A stretch of 52,548 nt of DNA from NCBI GenBank assembly GCA_018241125.1, contig JAFEEL010000017.1, forward strand, positions 1 to 52,548, read 5' to 3'. This stretch comes from Pseudomonadota bacterium. GTDB taxonomy: Bacteria; Pseudomonadota; Gammaproteobacteria; Xanthomonadales; Xanthomonadaceae. Under the pieces are notes generated by a model that saw only the letters and a program-made list of their open reading frames with translations, did no database searches and had not been told where the DNA came from. Shown piece by piece: positions 13,623 through 50,592 of the stretch; within the stretch, counting starts at the first letter, position 1, and every line of letters begins with the position of its first letter. Position numbers and translations under genes: made by a program.

Positions 13623-13937
13623 TAGCTGTTCTTCGGCCATCGGCAGATTTGTCTGCGGGTCTGCTTGCTCTGCTTGCGAAAGACGAAGTTGCTCTGCTTG
13701 TCTCCTTCCCCCGCTTGCGGGGGAAGGTTGGGATGGGGGCTGGCGTAATTGCGTGACCGCGCAAAGCAGCCCCCACCTCAGTCCTCCCCCGCAGGCGGGG
13801 GAGGATGCCTGTCTGCTTGTCTCCTTCCCTCGCTCACGGTGGGCGGGCGAGGCGTCACCATGTGCTGGATCGGCGCAGACTTTGCACGGGTGCTGGATCT
13901 CGCGCGGGTTCCGCACCCATGCCAGTTGCGGCCCGGC
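13623..13937. repeat. Tail-to-tail pair of GC palindromes with G-run tails
   Basis: This gene-free stretch contains two inverted repeat units. Unit one (13705-13740) is a CTTCCCCCGC/GCGGGGGAAG hairpin followed by a GGTTGGGATGGGGGC tail. Unit two (13767-13806) is the reverse: a C-rich tail and then a TCCTCCCCCGC/GCGGGGGAGGA hairpin. About 27 bases separate the tails. Before unit one, short pieces with CTGCTTG repeats (13665-13701) recur after unit two. The pair lies between gcvT and the convergent DUF488 gene and could stop transcripts from both sides, although it has no U-tract. Confidence 0.8.
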
Positions 13938-19595: not shown

Positions 19596-19850
19596 ATGGC
19601 TACCAAGAAAGCTGCTGCGAAGAAGAAACCCGCTGCCAAGAAGGCCGCCAAGAAAGTCGTGAAGAAGGCCGCCAAGAAAGTCGTGAAGAAGGCTGCGAAG
19701 AAGGTCGCGAAGAAGGCTGCGAAGAAGGTCGCGAAGAAGCCCGCCAAGAAGGCTGCCAAGAAGGTCGCGAAGAAGCCCGCCAAGAAAGCGGCGAAGAAGA
19801 AGGCCGCTGCGGCTCCGGCGATGCCGGCGTCTCCTGCGCCCGCGATGTAA
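19596..19850 (+). CDS. Histone H1-like lysine/alanine-rich DNA-binding protein
   Basis: 84-aa protein, MATKKAAAKKKPAAKKAAKK and onward, built almost wholly from KKAAKKV / KKPAKKA repeats, ending in a neutral Ala/Pro/Met tail (APAMPASPAPAM). It resembles the C-terminal tail of eukaryotic H1 and bacterial Hc1/AlgP-type proteins, which compact DNA by charge. The DNA itself is a tandem repeat (near-identical 24-27 bp blocks reading AAG-AAG-GCC), so repeat number may vary between strains. A GAGGAG seven bases upstream sets the ATG at 19596, two codons inside the open frame. Confidence 0.92.
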   Translation: MATKKAAAKKKPAAKKAAKKVVKKAAKKVVKKAAKKVAKKAAKKVAKKPAKKAAKKVAKKPAKKAAKKKAAAAPAMPASPAPAM

Positions 19851-21940: not shown

Positions 21941-21943
21941 GAG

Positions 21944-22109
21944 CAGGGAGCACTGAGCAGGGAGCAGGGAGCGGGGAGCGGGAGCGGGGAGCGGGAAGCG
22001 GGAAGCGGGGAGCGGGAAGCGGGAAGCGGGGAGCAGGGAGCAGGGAGCAGGGAGCAGGGAGCAGGGAGCGGGAAGCGGGAAGCGGGAAGCAGGGAGCGGG
22101 GAGCAGAGA
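21944..22109. repeat. Heptanucleotide tandem array, GGAGCRG/GGAAGCG type
   Basis: About 23 imperfect copies of a 7-bp G-rich unit (GGAGCAG, GGAGCGG, GAAGCGG), starting right after the PAS-GGDEF-EAL stop codon. It is the longest of the window's heptanucleotide arrays and is purine-rich on one strand. Confidence 0.93.
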
Positions 22110-22151
22110 GACGGGATTCTCGTGGTGGGCGACGGTGATCGGCTACTTCCC

Positions 22152-22312
22152 CTTCCCCCGCTTGCGGGGGAAGGCTGGGATGGGGGCGGGCTTGCGCTCT
22201 ACGACATCCCGCACCCCGACAGCAGCGTGGCGCGTCCAGTGTCGTCGCACGGTGGGCGGGCTTGCGTTCTACGACATCCCCCGCCCCGATCCTCCCCGCA
22301 GGCGGGGCAGGG
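22152..22312. repeat. Second tail-to-tail pair of GC palindromes, with a 68-bp-spaced direct repeat
   Basis: Unit one (22152-22187) is nearly identical to the one at 13705 (CTTCCCCCGC hairpin plus a G-run tail). An inverted partner lies at 22275-22312 (CCTCCCCGC hairpin). Between them a segment GGGCTTGCG(C/T)TCTACGACATCCC appears twice about 69 bases apart (around 22188 and 22257). The remainder, to 22370, is C/T-rich and holds no gene. Confidence 0.75.
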
Positions 22313-22370
22313 AGTTGCATTACTGGCTCACGCCCCTCTCTCCTCTCCCGTCTCCCACTTCCCGTTCCTC

Positions 22371-33538: not shown

Positions 33539-34531
33539 ATGTCGCGGCACAGCGACGAACAGGTGCGCCTACTCGCGAAGGTCGCCTTCCCCGATTTCCC
33601 ATTCACCCCGAAACGCTTCGCGGTACGCCCCGGCATCGCGATGGCCTTCCTCGACGAAGGCCCGCGCGACGGGCAGGTGGTCGTCATGCTGCACGGCAAT
33701 CCGTCGTGGAGTTATTACTGGCGGCATCTAGTGCTCGGGCTGCGGGATCCGGCTTCTGGCAAGGGTTATCGCTGCATCGTGCCCGACCACATCGGCATGG
33801 GGCTGTCGGACAAGCCCGGCGACGATGCGTACGAATACACCTTGCAATCACGGGTGGACGACCTGGGTGCGCTGCTGGATCATCTGGGCATCGATGGGCC
33901 GCTGACGCTGGCGGTGCACGATTGGGGTGGGATGATCGGTTTCGGTTGGGCGCTGGCGCATGCCCCGCAGGTCGAGCGGCTGGTGATCCTCAACACCGCC
34001 GCCTTCCCGCTGCCCGAGGCCAAGCCGATGCCGTGGCAGTTGCTGTTCGGGCGCGGCTCGAAGTTCGGTGCGCTGGCGATCCGCGGTATCAACGCCTTCG
34101 CCGCCGGCGCGGCGCGACAGGGCGTGGTGACGCCGATGCCCGCCGACGTGCGGCGGGCGTACCTTGCGCCTTACGACTCGTGGGCGCATCGCATCGCCAC
34201 CTTGCGCTTCGTGCAGGATATCCCGCTGGGGCCCGGCGACCGCGCGTGGTCGCTGGTCGCCGAAGCCGGCAAACGTCTGCACGAGTTCGCCGACCGCCCG
34301 ACGTTCATCGGTTGGGGTCTGCGCGATTTCGTGTTCGATCATCACTTCCTCGATGGCTTCACGCAGGCATTGCCGAACGCGCAGGTGCAGGCGTTCGCCG
34401 ATGCCGGGCACTATGTGCTGGAGGACAAGCACGCGCTGCTGGTGCCGGTGATCCGCACGTTCCTCGACGCGCATCCTCTTTCCTCCTCCCCCTGCTCGCT
34501 GCGCGAGCAAGGGGAGGTTGGGAGGGGGTAG
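33539..34531 (+). CDS. oleB: OleB, beta-lactone decarboxylase (alpha/beta hydrolase)
   Basis: 330-aa haloalkane-dehalogenase-like hydrolase. Nucleophile Asp128 in VHDWGGMIGF, acid Asp263 (GLRDFVF), base His291 (AGHYVLED) and oxyanion HGNPSWSYYW. In the ole pathway OleB splits the beta-lactone made by OleC into a cis-olefin and carbon dioxide. The last 16 residues (SSSPCSLREQGEVGRG) are not from the enzyme: they are the translation of a GC palindrome with a G-run tail (34485-34531), and the stop TAG is part of that repeat. The real fold ends near FLDAHPL. Confidence 0.93.
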   Translation: MSRHSDEQVRLLAKVAFPDFPFTPKRFAVRPGIAMAFLDEGPRDGQVVVMLHGNPSWSYYWRHLVLGLRDPASGKGYRCIVPDHIGMGLSDKPGDDAYEYTLQSRVDDLGALLDHLGIDGPLTLAVHDWGGMIGFGWALAHAPQVERLVILNTAAFPLPEAKPMPWQLLFGRGSKFGALAIRGINAFAAGAARQGVVTPMPADVRRAYLAPYDSWAHRIATLRFVQDIPLGPGDRAWSLVAEAGKRLHEFADRPTFIGWGLRDFVFDHHFLDGFTQALPNAQVQAFADAGHYVLEDKHALLVPVIRTFLDAHPLSSSPCSLREQGEVGRG

Positions 34532-34607
34532 GCTCACGCCTTCATGGAGTTGCGGCAGCCAAGCACCCCTCCCCAACCCTCCTCTTCGCTTCGCGAAAGG
34601 GAGGGGG
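34485..34607. repeat. Tail-to-tail palindrome pair spanning the oleB/oleC junction
   Basis: Unit one (34485-34531): CCTCCCC-hairpin-GGGGAGG with a GTTGGGAGGGGGTAG tail, inside the 3' end of oleB. Unit two (34564-34607): the inverse, CACCCCTCCCCAACCC tail and a TTCGCTTCGCGAA hairpin, inside the 5' end of oleC. Both are translated. The 32 bases between them carry the oleC ATG at 34544. Confidence 0.85.
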
Positions 34608-36490
34608 TTTCACCCTGCAACATCGCCGCGAGCTTGCCGCGCGTCGCCGCGCAGCGCGGCGAACAGGTGGCGATGCGCTGTCCGGGCGCGCGCGGTCGCG
34701 GCGGCTTCGCGCGCTACGATGTCACGCTGACCTATGCGCAGCTGGATGCGCGCTCGGACGCCATCGCTGCCGGCTTGCAGCGCATCGGCATCGTCCGTGG
34801 CGTGCGCACGGTGGTGATGGTGCGCCCGACGCCGGAGTTCTTCCTGCTGATGTTCGCGCTGTTCAAGCTCGGCGCGGTGCCGGTGCTGGTCGATCCGGGC
34901 ATCGACCAGCGTGCGTTGAAACAGTGTCTGGGCGAAGCCCAGTCGCAGGCCTTCATCGGTATCGGGCTGGCGCACGCGGCGCGTGTCGTGCTGGGCTGGG
35001 CGAAGTCGGCGCGCATCCGCGTCACCGTGGGCCGGCGCTGGTTCTGGGGCGGGGCGACGCTGAAACAGGTTGAAGCCCTTGGCGCGGGTGCAGGCCCGCA
35101 ACTGGCCGCCACACAACCCGATGAGACCGCCGCGATCTTGTTCACCAGCGGATCGACCGGCGTACCCAAGGGCGTGGTCTATCGGCATCGCCATTTCGTC
35201 GCGCAGATCGCGATGCTGCGCGCGGCGTTCGGGATCGAAGCCGGCGGCGTCGATTTGCCGACGTTCCCGCCGTTCGCGCTGTTCGATCCGGCGCTGGGGC
35301 TGACCTCGATCATCCCCGACATGGACCCCACGCGCCCGGCGCGTGCCGACCCGAACAAGCTGCACGACGCGATCGCGCGTTTCGGTGTGACGCAGTTGTT
35401 TGGCTCGCCGGCGCTGATCGACGTGCTGGCGCGTTTCGGCGCAAAACTGCCTACGATTCGCCGCGTGACGTCCGCCGGCGCGCCGGTACCGCCGGGCGTG
35501 GTGGCGAAAATGCGTGCGTTGCTGCCGGACGACGCGCAGTTGTGGACGCCTTACGGCGCCACTGAATGCCTGCCGGTGGCGGTGATCGAGGGTCGTGAGC
35601 TGCAAGCCACGCGACAAGCCACCGAGAACGGCGCCGGCACCTGCGTCGGCCGACCGGTCGCGCCCAATGTCGTGCGCATCATCCGCATCAGCGACGATGC
35701 GGTTTCGGCGTGGTCGGATGAGCTGGTCTTGCCGCAGGGCGAAGTCGGCGAGATCACCGTCGCCGGGCCGAGTGCGACCGACGAATATTTCAATCGCCCT
35801 GAAGCCACGCGGCTGGCGAAGATCGTCGAAACGTCACCGCCTCCCCCGTTTGCGGGGGGTGAAGAGGGCTGTTCGCGGATCACTGATCCGCAGCTTGATG
35901 AACGCCCGCAGGCGATGCCTGCGGGCCCGGTGGGTTGGGGTGGGGGTGAAAATTCCGGGGATGCCCAGAAGCGCATCGTCCATCGCATGGGTGACGTCGG
36001 TTATTTCGACGCGCAAGGCCGGCTGTGGTTTTGTGGCCGCAAGTCGCATCGCGTGCAAACCCGCGACGGCACGCTGTTCACCGAACAGGTCGAGCCGGTG
36101 TTCAACACCCATCCAGACGTGCTGCGTACCGCGTTGGTGGGGATCGAGGTGGAGCGGCCCTTCACGCCATCGCACATCTATCCGCCGGGTTGTACCGACA
36201 TCGCCGAGGCGATGACGCTTTATGGCGTGGTGCGCGACAACGTGCCGGTGCTGTGCGTGGAACTGCGCGCCGGCATCGCGCCATCGCAACACGCACGCGT
36301 GGTTGCGCAGTTGCGTGAAATCGGCGCGCGTCATCCGCACACCGCGCGCATCGAGCGCTTTGCCTTCCATCCGAAGTTCCCGGTCGACATCCGCCACAAT
36401 GCCAAGATCGGCCGCGAGAAGTTGGCGCTCTGGGCGGCCAACGCCCCCTCCCTTTCGCCGCAGGCGAAGGGGAGGGTCGGGGAGGGGTAG
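34544..36490 (+). CDS. oleC: OleC, beta-lactone synthetase, with repeat-encoded head, insert and tail
   Basis: 648-aa ANL-superfamily (AMP-forming) enzyme that turns the beta-hydroxy acid from OleD into a beta-lactone. The P-loop is TSGSTGVPKG (201-210); YGATECLPVAV (337-347), MGDVGYFD (482-489) and the C-terminal lysine in NAKIGREK (619-626) are all intact. The native protein should begin near CNIAASLPRV; here the only start is ATG 34544, and residues about 7-24 are read from a repeat. Residues about 431-474 are an extra block encoded by a repeat cluster (35834-35965), just before the conserved RIVHRMGD segment. The last 15 residues (PSLSPQAKGRVGEG) and the TAG also come from a repeat. The catalytic core looks complete, so it may still work. 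Confidence 0.92.
   Translation: MELRQPSTPPQPSSSLREREGVSPCNIAASLPRVAAQRGEQVAMRCPGARGRGGFARYDVTLTYAQLDARSDAIAAGLQRIGIVRGVRTVVMVRPTPEFFLLMFALFKLGAVPVLVDPGIDQRALKQCLGEAQSQAFIGIGLAHAARVVLGWAKSARIRVTVGRRWFWGGATLKQVEALGAGAGPQLAATQPDETAAILFTSGSTGVPKGVVYRHRHFVAQIAMLRAAFGIEAGGVDLPTFPPFALFDPALGLTSIIPDMDPTRPARADPNKLHDAIARFGVTQLFGSPALIDVLARFGAKLPTIRRVTSAGAPVPPGVVAKMRALLPDDAQLWTPYGATECLPVAVIEGRELQATRQATENGAGTCVGRPVAPNVVRIIRISDDAVSAWSDELVLPQGEVGEITVAGPSATDEYFNRPEATRLAKIVETSPPPPFAGGEEGCSRITDPQLDERPQAMPAGPVGWGGGENSGDAQKRIVHRMGDVGYFDAQGRLWFCGRKSHRVQTRDGTLFTEQVEPVFNTHPDVLRTALVGIEVERPFTPSHIYPPGCTDIAEAMTLYGVVRDNVPVLCVELRAGIAPSQHARVVAQLREIGARHPHTARIERFAFHPKFPVDIRHNAKIGREKLALWAANAPSLSPQAKGRVGEG
35838..35960. repeat. 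Palindrome cluster inserted inside oleC
   Basis: Three hairpins in a row inside the coding sequence: CCTCCCCC/GGGGGGTG, a perfect GCGGATCA/TGATCCGC, and a perfect CCCGCAGGC/GCCTGCGGG, followed by a TTGGGGTGGGGGTGA G-run tail. The total length is a multiple of three with no in-frame stop, so OleC gains about 44 residues rich in Pro and Gly. Confidence 0.85.
36445..36490 (+). repeat. Palindrome with G-run tail at the end of oleC
   Basis: CCCTCCC-TTCGCCGCAGGCGAA-GGGAGGG hairpin followed by a TCGGGGAGGGGTAG tail. The tail points toward the DUF559 gene and supplies the oleC stop. It forms an inverted pair with the copy at 36831-36873. Confidence 0.85.
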
Positions 36491-36492
36491 CT

Positions 36493-36885
36493 TTGGATTC
36501 GAAACGGTTGTTCGCGCGCGAACTGCGCCATAGCTCGACCGACGCAGAACGCTTGCTGTGGCGTCACTTGCGGAATCGTCAGCTCGGCGGATTCCGCTTT
36601 CGTCGCCAGGTACCGCTGGGAAACTTTGTCGTGGACTTCTGTTGCCCACAGGCGAAGCTCGTCGTGGAACTGGACGGTGGGCAGCACGGCGACCGCGTTG
36701 ACTACGATCGGTCACGCACGACGTGGCTCGGTGACAGGGGCTATGGTGTGCTGAGGTTCTGGAATCACGAGGTGATGCAGCAGCCCGAGGCCGTGCTGGA
36801 GGAGATTCATCGGCAGTTGACGAGGAACTTCACCCCTCCCCAACCCTCCCCTTCGCTGCGCGAAAGGGAGGGAGACAAGCGATGA
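36493..36885 (+). CDS. DUF559 (Vsr-like) endonuclease-domain protein inside the ole operon
   Basis: 130-aa DUF559 protein. The fold is of the Vsr/PD-(D/E)xK type: LWRHLRNRQLGGFRFRRQ, then Asp48 in NFVVDFCCPQ, ExD at Glu59-Asp61 (VVELDGGQH) and VLRFWNHEV near the end. Its cellular role is unknown. The start is uncertain: TTG at 36493, two bases after the oleC stop, is the first available. Its last residues ([17 protein letters not shown]) are translated from an inverted palindrome copy (36831-36873), so the gene is bracketed by facing repeats. Other ole clusters have oleC next to oleD, so this gene is an insertion. The stop overlaps the next small ORF (ATGA). Confidence 0.85.
   Translation: MDSKRLFARELRHSSTDAERLLWRHLRNRQLGGFRFRRQVPLGNFVVDFCCPQAKLVVELDGGQHGDRVDYDRSRTTWLGDRGYGVLRFWNHEVMQQPEAVLEEIHRQLTRNFTPPQPSPSLREREGDKR
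36831..36873 (-). repeat. Inverted palindrome copy at the end of the DUF559 gene
   Basis: CACCCCTCCCCAACCC tail, then CTCCCC-TTCGCTGCGCGAA-AGGGAGGG hairpin. Reverse-complemented, it matches the copy at 36445-36490 almost throughout. Its end also provides the GGGAGGGAG ribosome site for the ORF at 36882. Confidence 0.85.
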
Positions 36886-37022
36886 ACATTCTCGTGACCG
36901 GCCGCGGTGGGCGAGCGGCGGGGTTCGCGAGAGTCCGGGGGACTCTCGCGCCGCGGCGAGCGCCGCGCAAGGAAGCGCGGCCGGATGACTGCGCCATGGA
37001 TGGCACGGAGTCCAATGCATGA
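36882..37022 (+). CDS. 46-codon ORF, duplicated start of oleD with a frameshifted remainder
   Basis: The ATG overlaps the DUF559 stop (ATGA, 36882-36885) and has a very strong GGAGGGAG nine bases upstream. It begins [10 protein letters not shown], nearly the same as OleD's [10 protein letters not shown]; the DNA is 20 of 21 identical over ATGAA(C/G)ATTCTCGTGACCGGC. The rest ([20 protein letters not shown] ...) reads through two perfect hairpins (36927-36949 and 36962-36981) and is not OleD. Its TGA overlaps the true oleD ATG (ATGA, 37019-37022). It is probably a remnant left by an insertion into oleD that still couples translation onward. Whether the peptide has a function is unknown. Confidence 0.55.
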
Positions 37023-38023
37023 AGATTCTCGTGACCGGCGGCGGCGGCTTCCTCGGCCAGGCGATCTGCCGCCGGCTGGTCGCGCGCGGCCACGCGGTGG
37101 CGAGCTTCAACCGCGGTGCCTATCCGGAACTCGATGCGCTGGGCGTGCGCCAGATCCGTGGTGACTTGGCCGATGCGATGGCCGTGCGTGAGGCGGCGCG
37201 CGGGATGGACGCGATCTTCCACAACGCCGCCAAGGCCGGGGGCTGGGGCAGCTACGAGAGCTACCGGCTGGCCAACGTGGTCGGCACCGACAATGTGCTC
37301 GCGGCCTGTCGTGCGCACGGCATCGGCAAGCTGGTCTACACATCCACACCCAGCGTCACCCACTGCGCCACCCGCGCGGTTCAAGGCGGCAACGAGGTGA
37401 ATACGCCCTATGCCGAACGCTTCAATGCAGCCTATCCGGCCACCAAGACGATTGCCGAACAGGTGGTGCTGGCGGCCAACGACGCCAACCTTGCGACGGT
37501 GGCGCTGCGCCCACGGCTGATCTGGGGCCCGGGCGACAACCACCTGCTGCCGCGGCTGGTCGCGCGTGCGCACGCCGGGCGGCTGCGTTTGGTCGGCGAC
37601 GGCAACAACTTGATCGATACCACCTACATCGACAATGCCGCGCAGGCGCACATCGATGCCTTCGAGCATCTGGCCGTCGGCGCGGCGTGCGCGGGCAAGG
37701 CGTATTTCATCTCCAACGGCGATCCGCGCAGCCTGCGCGAAACGATCAATGCGCTGCTGGCCGCGGTGGGCGCGCCAAAGGTATCGGGCACGATCCCGTT
37801 TGTGCTGGCGTATGGCCTGGGCGCCGCGCTTGAAGCGGCGTATCGCATGTTGCCGCTGCGTGGCGAGCCGCCGATGACGCGCTTTCTGGCCGAGCAGCTC
37901 GCCACCGCGCATTGGTACGACATCCGCGCAGCCAAGTTGGATTTCGGCTACACGCCGCAAGTGAGTTTCGACGAAGGCTTGCGGCGACTGCGCGCGGCGT
38001 GGGCCGAACACCACGCCAGATGA
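37019..38023 (+). CDS. oleD: OleD, beta-keto acid reductase (NAD(P)-dependent SDR)
   Basis: 334-aa extended SDR. Cofactor motif [15 protein letters not shown], active-site Ser/Tyr/Lys with TSTPSVTH and YPATK, and the family block [22 protein letters not shown]. It reduces the 2-alkyl-3-keto acid made by OleA to the hydroxy acid used by OleC; OleB, OleC and OleD form one large complex in Xanthomonas. The start is ATG 37019, reached by coupling from the 46-codon ORF; a GGAG lies thirteen bases upstream. ubiJ follows after 43 bases and is probably transcribed on its own. Confidence 0.94.
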
Positions 38024-47124: not shown

Positions 47125-47278
47125 CCTCCCTCCCCCGCGCGCGGGGGAGGGTTCTGCCATGGTCGTTACGCTGAGCGTAGCGGATGCTCCCTCCCCCGCG
47201 CGCGGGGGAGGGTTGGGGTGGGGGGCGCGGTGCGAAACGCCCCCATCCCAGCCTTCCCCCGCAAGCGGGGGAAGGGGC
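47125..47278. repeat. Three GC palindromes with G-quadruplex-type tails between aceB and aceA
   Basis: Hairpins CTCCCCCGCG/CGCGGGGGAG at 47125-47153 and 47187-47226 (same direction), and an inverted CTTCCCCCGC hairpin at 47239-47278. The second unit has tail GGGGGAGGGTTGGGGTGGGG, four G-runs of three or more, a canonical G-quadruplex pattern. The remaining bases of the gap (47065-47124) show no gene. Confidence 0.85.
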
Positions 47279-47303
47279 AGCCCCCGGTTGCTTGTCGCTT
47301 CTC

Positions 47304-47429
47304 GAGTCCCAAGTCCCAAGTCCCAAGTCCCAAGTCCCAAGTCCCAAGTCCCGAGTCCCGAGTCCCGAGTCCCGAGTCCCGAGTCCCGAGTCCCGAACCC
47401 CGAATCCCGAGTCCCCATTCCCCATCCCC
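47304..47429 (+). repeat. Heptanucleotide tandem array, AAGTCCC/GAGTCCC x18
   Basis: Eighteen 7-bp units in a row: one GAGTCCC, six AAGTCCC, six GAGTCCC, then five decayed copies (GAACCCC, GAATCCC, GAGTCCC, CATTCCC, CATCCCC). The array stops 12 bases before the aceA ATG, so it forms the immediate leader of aceA. Confidence 0.95.
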
Positions 47430-47441
47430 GGAGTTGAAGCC

Positions 47442-48754: not shown

Positions 48755-48794
48755 AAGCCCCTCTCCCATCGGGAGCGGGGTGGGGGTGAGGGGC
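48755..48794 (+). repeat. GCCCCTCTCCC-type palindrome with G-run tail
   Basis: AAGCCCCTCTCCCATCGGGAGC then GGGGTGGGGGTGAGGGGC. A very similar unit in the same direction lies at 50400-50441, so the two flank yifB as direct repeats. Confidence 0.75.
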
Positions 48795-48824
48795 GAGCTG
48801 GTTTGGCGCATCGGCAGGGCTGGC

Positions 48825-50399: not shown

Positions 50400-50441
50400 C
50401 AAGCCCCTCTGCCAGCGGGAGAGGGGTTGGGGTGAGGGGTG
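50400..50441 (+). repeat. GCCCCTCTGCC-type palindrome with G-run tail
   Basis: CAAGCCCCTCTGCCAGCGGGAGAGGGG hairpin followed by a TTGGGGTGAGGGGTG tail; same orientation as the unit at 48755. Confidence 0.75.
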
Positions 50442-50592
50442 CCCGCTGGCGACGCGATGGCGCGATGCGATGGCCGCGACGAGGTGGCGATCCGACATCA
50501 ACCCCGTTGCGGCGGCCCTCACATCGGCAAGTGCGTCACGGATGCGCGCGCCCGATACCCAGCGACGGCGATCACGCCCGCACCGCGAGAAG

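Follow-up and report, generated by a model that had tools for sequence, protein, structure and literature searches.

Facing repeats of a triplex-motif kind around DUF559 nuclease genes: a candidate repeat-maintaining unit

A 52,548-nucleotide (nt) stretch of a Xanthomonadaceae genome (GenBank assembly GCA_018241125.1, contig JAFEEL010000017.1; hereafter the window, meaning the whole stretch analysed) carries a gene for a small DUF559 protein lying between two copies of one repeat, which are inverted with respect to each other and turn their G-rich tails inward. Comparison with other genomes places this unit of repeat, DUF559 open reading frame (ORF) and repeat in a wider pattern: facing repeats bracket DUF559 genes far more often than they do other genes, each DUF559 lineage has its own repeat type, even among the paralogues of one genome, and related genomes differ in having or lacking whole units. 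Judging by their sequence, the repeats match the class II intrastrand-triplex motif known as BoxC, PIT or TM. On balance, DUF559 probably recognises the repeat cognate to its lineage and either maintains or spreads the repeat–gene–repeat units.

The window unit

The ORF scores 149.8 bits against the PF04480 profile, for which the gathering score is 20.6, and belongs to the DUF559 family. Gene, repeats and tail-inward layout all lie where a preliminary description, made from the letters of the window, had placed them:

36493–36885, + strand: DUF559 gene; 130 residues; PF04480 E=3e-44; Vsr/EDxHD-type PD-(D/E)xK fold, with residues E19, D48, E59, D61 and H65
36445–36491, + strand: upstream flanking repeat, tail toward the DUF559 gene; hairpin z-score -3.4
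36446–36459, 36460–36462 and 36463–36476: pyrimidine arm, loop and purine arm of the upstream repeat
36477–36479 and 36480–36488: linker TCG and mirror (putative third-strand) tail GGGAGGGGT of the upstream repeat
36825–36874, - strand: downstream flanking repeat, tail toward the gene; hairpin z-score -3.8; arm AGGGGAGGG, linker TTG, tail GGGAGGGGT

At its 3' end the ORF runs into the downstream repeat, which therefore encodes the C-terminus of the protein.

Inverted repeat pairs around DUF559 genes

Bracketing was measured as the best local alignment between about 350 bases upstream of a gene and the reverse complement of about 350 bases downstream, a flank score that counts any inverted pair, whatever its motif or orientation. 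Scores of at least 45 were reached by 24 of 40 DUF559 genes (four of the 40 being those of the window's own genome) and by 2 of 402 other ORFs in the same 40 regions; at a threshold of 55 or above the counts are 23 and 0. Flank scores of at least 40 were found at 52 of 76 loci in the family (genus included), at 13 of 28 loci elsewhere in the phylum (the 28 best-scoring new loci), and at 55 of 77 loci in named genomes (from the best 80 of 573 relatives), the flanked named loci including Desulfobacterales, Nitrospiria, Rhizobium, SAR202 and Dehalococcoidia (Chloroflexi), Planctomycetota, Gastranaerophilales and Cedecea. The family set consists of 70 loci tested from 81 DUF559 hits in 60 genomes, the 11 left out being mostly fragments or at contig edges, together with all six hits of genomes G305 and G306. 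The named set holds the 80 closest relatives of the query rather than a random sample; 78 were testable, and 77 were kept once an artefact caused by a run of Ns had been dropped.

Orientation was assessed separately, by means of a repeat finder. Of 104 DUF559 loci, 49 have both nearest repeats facing the gene and one has both facing away, while inward-facing repeats occur at 5 of 372 generic ORFs, 0 of 28 ParE genes and 0 of 22 RAYT genes (these controls exclude RAYT locus L308 and two ParE loci that were short). At least one repeat within 400 bp was found at 99 of the 104 DUF559 loci, against 88 of the 372 generic ORFs, which come from the same repeat-rich regions. The comparison with other genes that the preliminary description had proposed as a check on flanking enrichment is, by both measures, in its favour. 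The window's own genome (3.07 Mb in 67 contigs) holds five DUF559 genes, four of which lie between facing repeats scoring at least 60, of a different type each; the fifth, L005, has a flank score of 22 and, by eye, a degenerate facing pair.

The triplex motif

Across repeat types the tail is a mirror of the purine arm of the hairpin, G being matched by G and A by A or T, in keeping with the antiparallel purine-motif rule (G·GC, A·AT, T·AT) as stated in PMC4666352. The mirror was tested on 206 non-redundant gene-facing hairpins that were defined without the tail and had purine-only arms and linkers of 1–4 nt; the linker was picked for best match and A–T was scored as a match, shuffles being treated likewise. 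A perfect 8-nt mirror is present in 119 of the 206 motifs, against 44 with a direct match, and the mirror beats the direct match by 107 to 22. Motifs with G-rich tails are perfect mirrors in 106 of 132 cases, with a mean mirror match of 7.59 compared with a maximum of 6.95 when arms were shuffled among motifs (1000 times); in this set the tail has G opposite arm G in 789 of 824 cells, and A (137) or T (76) opposite arm A in 213 of 232. An earlier run of this test, with a less strict hairpin definition and the same treatment of linker and A–T, pointed the same way but with less contrast, because stems ran into the linker. Both window copies follow the mirror rule at nine of nine positions, as expected of class II intrastrand triplexes.

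These features suggest that the repeats are of the BoxC/PIT/TM kind. The preliminary description had likened them to the repetitive extragenic palindromes (REPs) that flank RAYT genes, but they are not REPs of that type in view of the motif and of the lack of inward-facing repeats at the 22 RAYT genes. According to PMC4666352, the motif was named BoxC, later PIT and later TM and occurs in more than 260 genomes, with 23 copies in E. coli MG1655; the E. coli motif forms a triplex in vitro as an isolated strand (by circular dichroism and nuclear magnetic resonance), TM loci are unstable in E. coli, and a stable triplex in vivo is unsupported. The same paper reports that transposase or integrase remnants were not found near TM sites and only speculates on their spread, and a word search of its main text returned no word beginning with 'nuclease' or 'ycjD' (the DUF559 gene of E. 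coli). Titles in the literature naming DUF559 do not mention repeats, and ycjD and triplex were not found together, in a search whose scope left aside subscription papers, the original PIT papers among them.

A G-quadruplex, for which G-runs are available, was rejected as the shared fold, as it would not need the mirrored A positions that are seen; it may serve as an alternative fold. Some repeat types have an extra hairpin in the linker (e.g. L014, L061). Among the stems of the 49 motifs with a perfect 9-nt mirror, T.G pairs account for 21 of 36 non-Watson–Crick positions, and a G.A mismatch recurs in several distant lineages.

Cognate types and copy number

Over 65 flanked loci in 44 genomes, repeat similarity between genomes averages about 25 where DUF559 identity is below 55% and about 54 where it is 60–70%. 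Paired with the nearest DUF559 relative in another genome, repeats score a mean of 50.4; shuffled among paralogues within genomes (13 genomes with two to four paralogues), they score a mean of 37.4 and a maximum of 45.6 in 1000 trials, so repeat type follows the nuclease lineage and not merely the host.

For the 60 family genomes, 39 of which are DUF559-positive (a few by fragments only), copy number was surveyed as pattern matches for type A or type C. A reversed-pattern control was clean for type C and uninformative for type A, a nearly mirror-symmetric motif. At least three copies of a type are carried by 34 of the 39 positive and 2 of the 21 negative genomes (Fisher p=3e-9), and by 28 and 3, respectively, after two copies per DUF559 gene are subtracted from the sum (p=3e-5); the compared genomes share ancestry, so these Fisher values overstate independence. 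That repeat number should follow DUF559 presence had been put forward with the preliminary description, and the survey agrees. The repeats are multicopy in the window's own genome, with 54 type A and 51 type C pattern matches (the window unit's repeat is type B). A core repeat has at least three matches in all 21 named genomes, which were picked mostly for a flanking repeat resembling this core; 19 reach at least three times the reversed-pattern control, of which two hold only three or four copies, while N. gonorrhoeae has 14 matches against 7 in the control and Xanthomonas sp. Leaf131 has 3 against 4.

Gain and loss of whole units

The window unit is absent from genome G307 (L109, L177), G306 has a unit of the same type at that site, and G025 has there a different DUF559 gene with a different repeat. 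An element of about 600 bp in G229 (L084), with 101-bp arms that differ at one position, is missing from G441, where its flanks lie 6 bp apart, and from six other relatives by viewed junctions; of two further genomes, G364 has diverged copies, the region itself being rearranged there, and G396 has other repeats in this place. DUF559 was found in 34 of 72,556 plasmid records, at least four of them chromosome-sized, so it is rarely plasmid cargo. As a separate observation, G025 (L108/L050) carries a partial 5' DUF559 copy with its own repeat, followed in tandem by a full copy.

E. coli ycjD

The ycjD gene of E. coli MG1655 is followed, about 165 bp past its 3' end, by a TM copy with the tail pointing away, and a degenerate hairpin overlaps the ycjD stop, by eye. 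The fabI-ycjD-sapF block is at least 80% covered in 3362 of 5426 E. coli genomes. Strain SF-173 lacks ycjD and the adjoining TM copy between fabI and sapF and has an efflux operon in their place (L314–L317); an efflux operon follows fabI in two strains inspected other than MG1655. Seven of 20 records among the matches listed match the TM stretch only; TM copies are thus also present in records without a match to this ycjD region.

The DUF559 protein

The assignment of the protein to the Vsr/PD-(D/E)xK type in the preliminary description is supported by conserved acidic residues, a structural model and fold matches. Residues E19, D48, D61 and H65 are invariant in 63 aligned DUF559 proteins, and E59 is conserved in at least 90%; their spacing (E19/D48/D61/H65) equals that of E73, D102, D115 and H119 in VsrA, a DUF559-domain protein of Caulobacter linked to the SOS response (PMC12907096). 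The AlphaFold2 model has a predicted local distance difference test score (pLDDT) of 91, and its best structural matches are 3hrl (NGO0050), a solved DUF559 protein whose domain is 47% identical, and I-Bth0305I, an EDxHD homing endonuclease (3r3p; Foldseek E=8e-5), the closest functionally characterised fold, which dimerises on a target of nearly 60 bp (PMC3943268). Vsr itself is a weaker match, and the NCBIfam vsr profile gives the window protein E=0.09, far below its cut-off. PDB sequence matches at E of 0.1 or above, including one to an unrelated toxin-subunit fold, were taken as noise.

Other repeats and neighbouring genes in the window

Beyond the unit, the window holds gene-less facing pairs, single repeats (from the repeat finder, for which about four hits are expected per shuffled window) and a repeat-containing insertion:

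34485–34605 (34485–34535, + strand; 34559–34605, - strand): gene-less facing pair just before oleC, without a counterpart there in G307
22150–22314 (22150–22193, + strand, type C; 22274–22314, - strand): gene-less facing pair
47188–47276 (47188–47231, + strand; 47233–47276, - strand): gene-less facing pair
13703–13746, + strand: type C repeat
48757–48799, + strand: type A repeat
50402–50446, + strand: type A repeat
35824–35972, + strand: repeat-containing insertion within oleC that keeps the reading frame

The preliminary description had listed four gene-less tail-to-tail pairs. Those at 22150/22314, 34485/34605 and 47188/47276 stand; at 13703 there is a single member, for which a partner up to 13806 was not found. 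The neighbours of the DUF559 unit itself are oleC (NCBIfam olefin beta-lactone synthetase) on one side and oleD (2-alkyl-3-oxoalkanoate reductase) on the other. The insertion in oleC, being in frame, turns repeats into protein sequence; it is absent from G307, and G025 and G306 have other insertions in the same loop. At 36886–37040 the start of oleD is duplicated around a short GC-rich palindromic stretch, with a similar arrangement in G307 (L109). Tandem arrays of 7-bp units at 21941–22130 and 47286–47440 lie directly beside triplex repeats (22150, 47276), and 19611–19823 is a lysine/alanine-rich 12-bp coding repeat, of histone-like type by eye.

Proposed role and alternatives

Architecture, fold and co-occurrence together suggest how such units might persist. 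The pyrimidine and purine arms would form a hairpin, onto which the purine-rich mirror tail could fold back as a third strand. DUF559, a Vsr/EDxHD-type nuclease, would recognise this cognate repeat, probably as an exposed single strand during replication, and cut it; repair of the break would then copy gene-less repeat pairs to new places and, less often, the gene-carrying unit likewise. In this role DUF559 would be a counterpart of RAYT, an unrelated enzyme acting on a different DNA fold, and BoxC/PIT/TM-type repeats, for which an enzyme of upkeep or spread is missing, have in it a strong candidate. More tentatively, DUF559 might recognise a triple helix folded from a single strand, use it as the terminus of a minimal mobile unit, and so constitute a second widespread repeat-propagation system that accounts for BoxC/PIT/TM.

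Several results weigh against a repeat-spreading DUF559, in addition to the shared ancestry of the genomes compared. Target-site duplications, the direct repeats that flank many insertion sequences, were not found beyond chance, with 4 of 106 flank pairs sharing at least 6 bp where 3.7 are expected, and with one 8-bp case (L084). A clear pair is missing at 24 of the 76 family loci and 15 of the 28 other phylum loci. Among 68 named loci (best 80 of 573 relatives; the N-run artefact is still counted here), both-side repeats face outward at six and inward at 32, and two named flank-score hits, L236 and L254, do not resemble the motif. The ycjD gene of K-12 is not bracketed, its 5' side being without a visible repeat, and E. 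coli records without a match to the ycjD region still match the TM stretch. DUF559-positive genomes carry repeats in 27 of 27 cases with RAYT and in 7 of 12 without. Repeat-rich genomes lacking DUF559, which the preliminary description had named as counter-evidence, do exist as a minority: G036 and G045 of the 21 negative genomes carry at least three copies of a type. Finally, the authors of PMC12907096 read VsrA as a mismatch-repair enzyme.

An alternative that we regard as unlikely, though it fits part of the data, makes DUF559 a parasite resembling a homing endonuclease, which would cut gene-less pairs already in place and be copied between repeats by recombination, the repeats themselves not being spread. 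It could explain why the closest functionally known fold is that of I-Bth0305I, with its target of nearly 60 bp (PMC3943268), why gene-less facing pairs of the same layout exist, and why DUF559 and repeat types at the site before oleD differ between G000 and G306 on the one hand and G025 on the other. However, repeat copy number tracks DUF559 presence, and the compared sites, which are few, show nothing versus a whole unit, not a gene-less pair versus a filled one. Less probable again is a housekeeping guard that resolves triplexes, cruciforms or mismatches at replication, its position beside the repeats reflecting co-inheritance and the repeats spreading by other means. The Vsr-like fold, the share of T.G pairs among stem irregularities, the tie of Caulobacter VsrA to the SOS response (PMC12907096) and the instability of TM loci in E. 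coli (PMC4666352) would suit such a guard; an enzyme acting in trans, however, needs neither facing copies of its substrate around its own gene nor a separate type for each paralogue.

We see very little room for ordinary very-short-patch mismatch repair of the Vsr type with incidental flanking repeats: the authors of PMC12907096 predict this function for Caulobacter VsrA, whereas the association reported here is roughly a hundredfold over ORF controls, type-specific and found in several phyla. Least credible of all is mobilisation of the repeats by RAYT (Y1_Tnp) transposases with DUF559 as a passenger, which we disfavour: RAYT genes are present in 37 of the 60 family genomes, and their presence is correlated with that of repeats both overall (p=0.003) and among DUF559-positive genomes (p=0.001), yet none of the 22 RAYT loci has inward repeats, facing pairs of this kind were not found at the own genome's three Y1_Tnp genes, G040 holds 65 repeat copies and no RAYT, and DUF559-negative genomes carry repeats equally rarely with RAYT (1 of 10) and without (1 of 11). 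Two RAYT genes in DUF559-negative relatives (L312, L313) carry instead flanking repeats of the TGTAGGAGCG type, a second repeat system in the family, and the Y1_Tnp genes L007 and L008 are surrounded by short repeated sequences, for example GGGGTCAGGTCTTGTTTTGCAACAT.

The link between DUF559 and the repeats offers a testable role for both. BoxC/PIT/TM repeats, described since the 1990s, are orphans whose spread is unexplained (PMC4666352, a survey of 2015), and the very name of the widespread DUF559 family marks its function as unknown. E. coli K-12, with ycjD and 23 TM copies (PMC4666352), provides a laboratory model. If the reading is correct, DUF559 would be a natural enzyme tied to triplex DNA.

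Comparison with known systems

The likeness of DUF559 here to EDxHD homing endonucleases is one of fold only: I-Bth0305I is phage-encoded and has extra DNA-binding regions (PMC3943268), whereas the window protein consists of the domain alone, and no intron was noted. Vsr and VsrA share a related fold and a like active-site spacing, Vsr itself acting on T:G mismatches together with a cytosine methylase, and 3hrl is a solved structure from the same family, whose entry title names no tested function.

In REPtrons, a small RAYT (TnpA-REP) gene lies between facing palindromic repeats, each lineage has its cognate repeat, gene-less pairs occur elsewhere in the genome, and the repeat is a hairpin tagged by a tetranucleotide. 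The REPtron analogy drawn in the preliminary description holds for architecture, as facing repeats, a cognate type per lineage and gene-less pairs are common to REP/REPIN-RAYT systems and the DUF559 unit; it fails for the enzyme and the repeat, as the gene between the repeats encodes a PD-(D/E)xK nuclease, not an HUH tyrosine transposase (Y1_Tnp), and the repeat is of a putative triplex-forming kind rather than a tagged hairpin. The DUF559 unit is REPtron-like in architecture and, because enzyme and repeat differ, is not a REPtron.

The closest counterpart of the repeats is BoxC/PIT/TM (TMECO), which, like those described here, has a pyrimidine arm, a purine arm, a short linker (TTA or CCG in E. 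coli) and a reverse-Hoogsteen mirror tail, and is multicopy and sometimes arranged in inverted pairs, the E. coli copies being intergenic. A core of this kind also flanks DUF559 genes in distant phyla. While TM as described in PMC4666352 has no mobility gene nearby, the repeats here are tied to a nuclease gene, and their types track the nuclease lineage.

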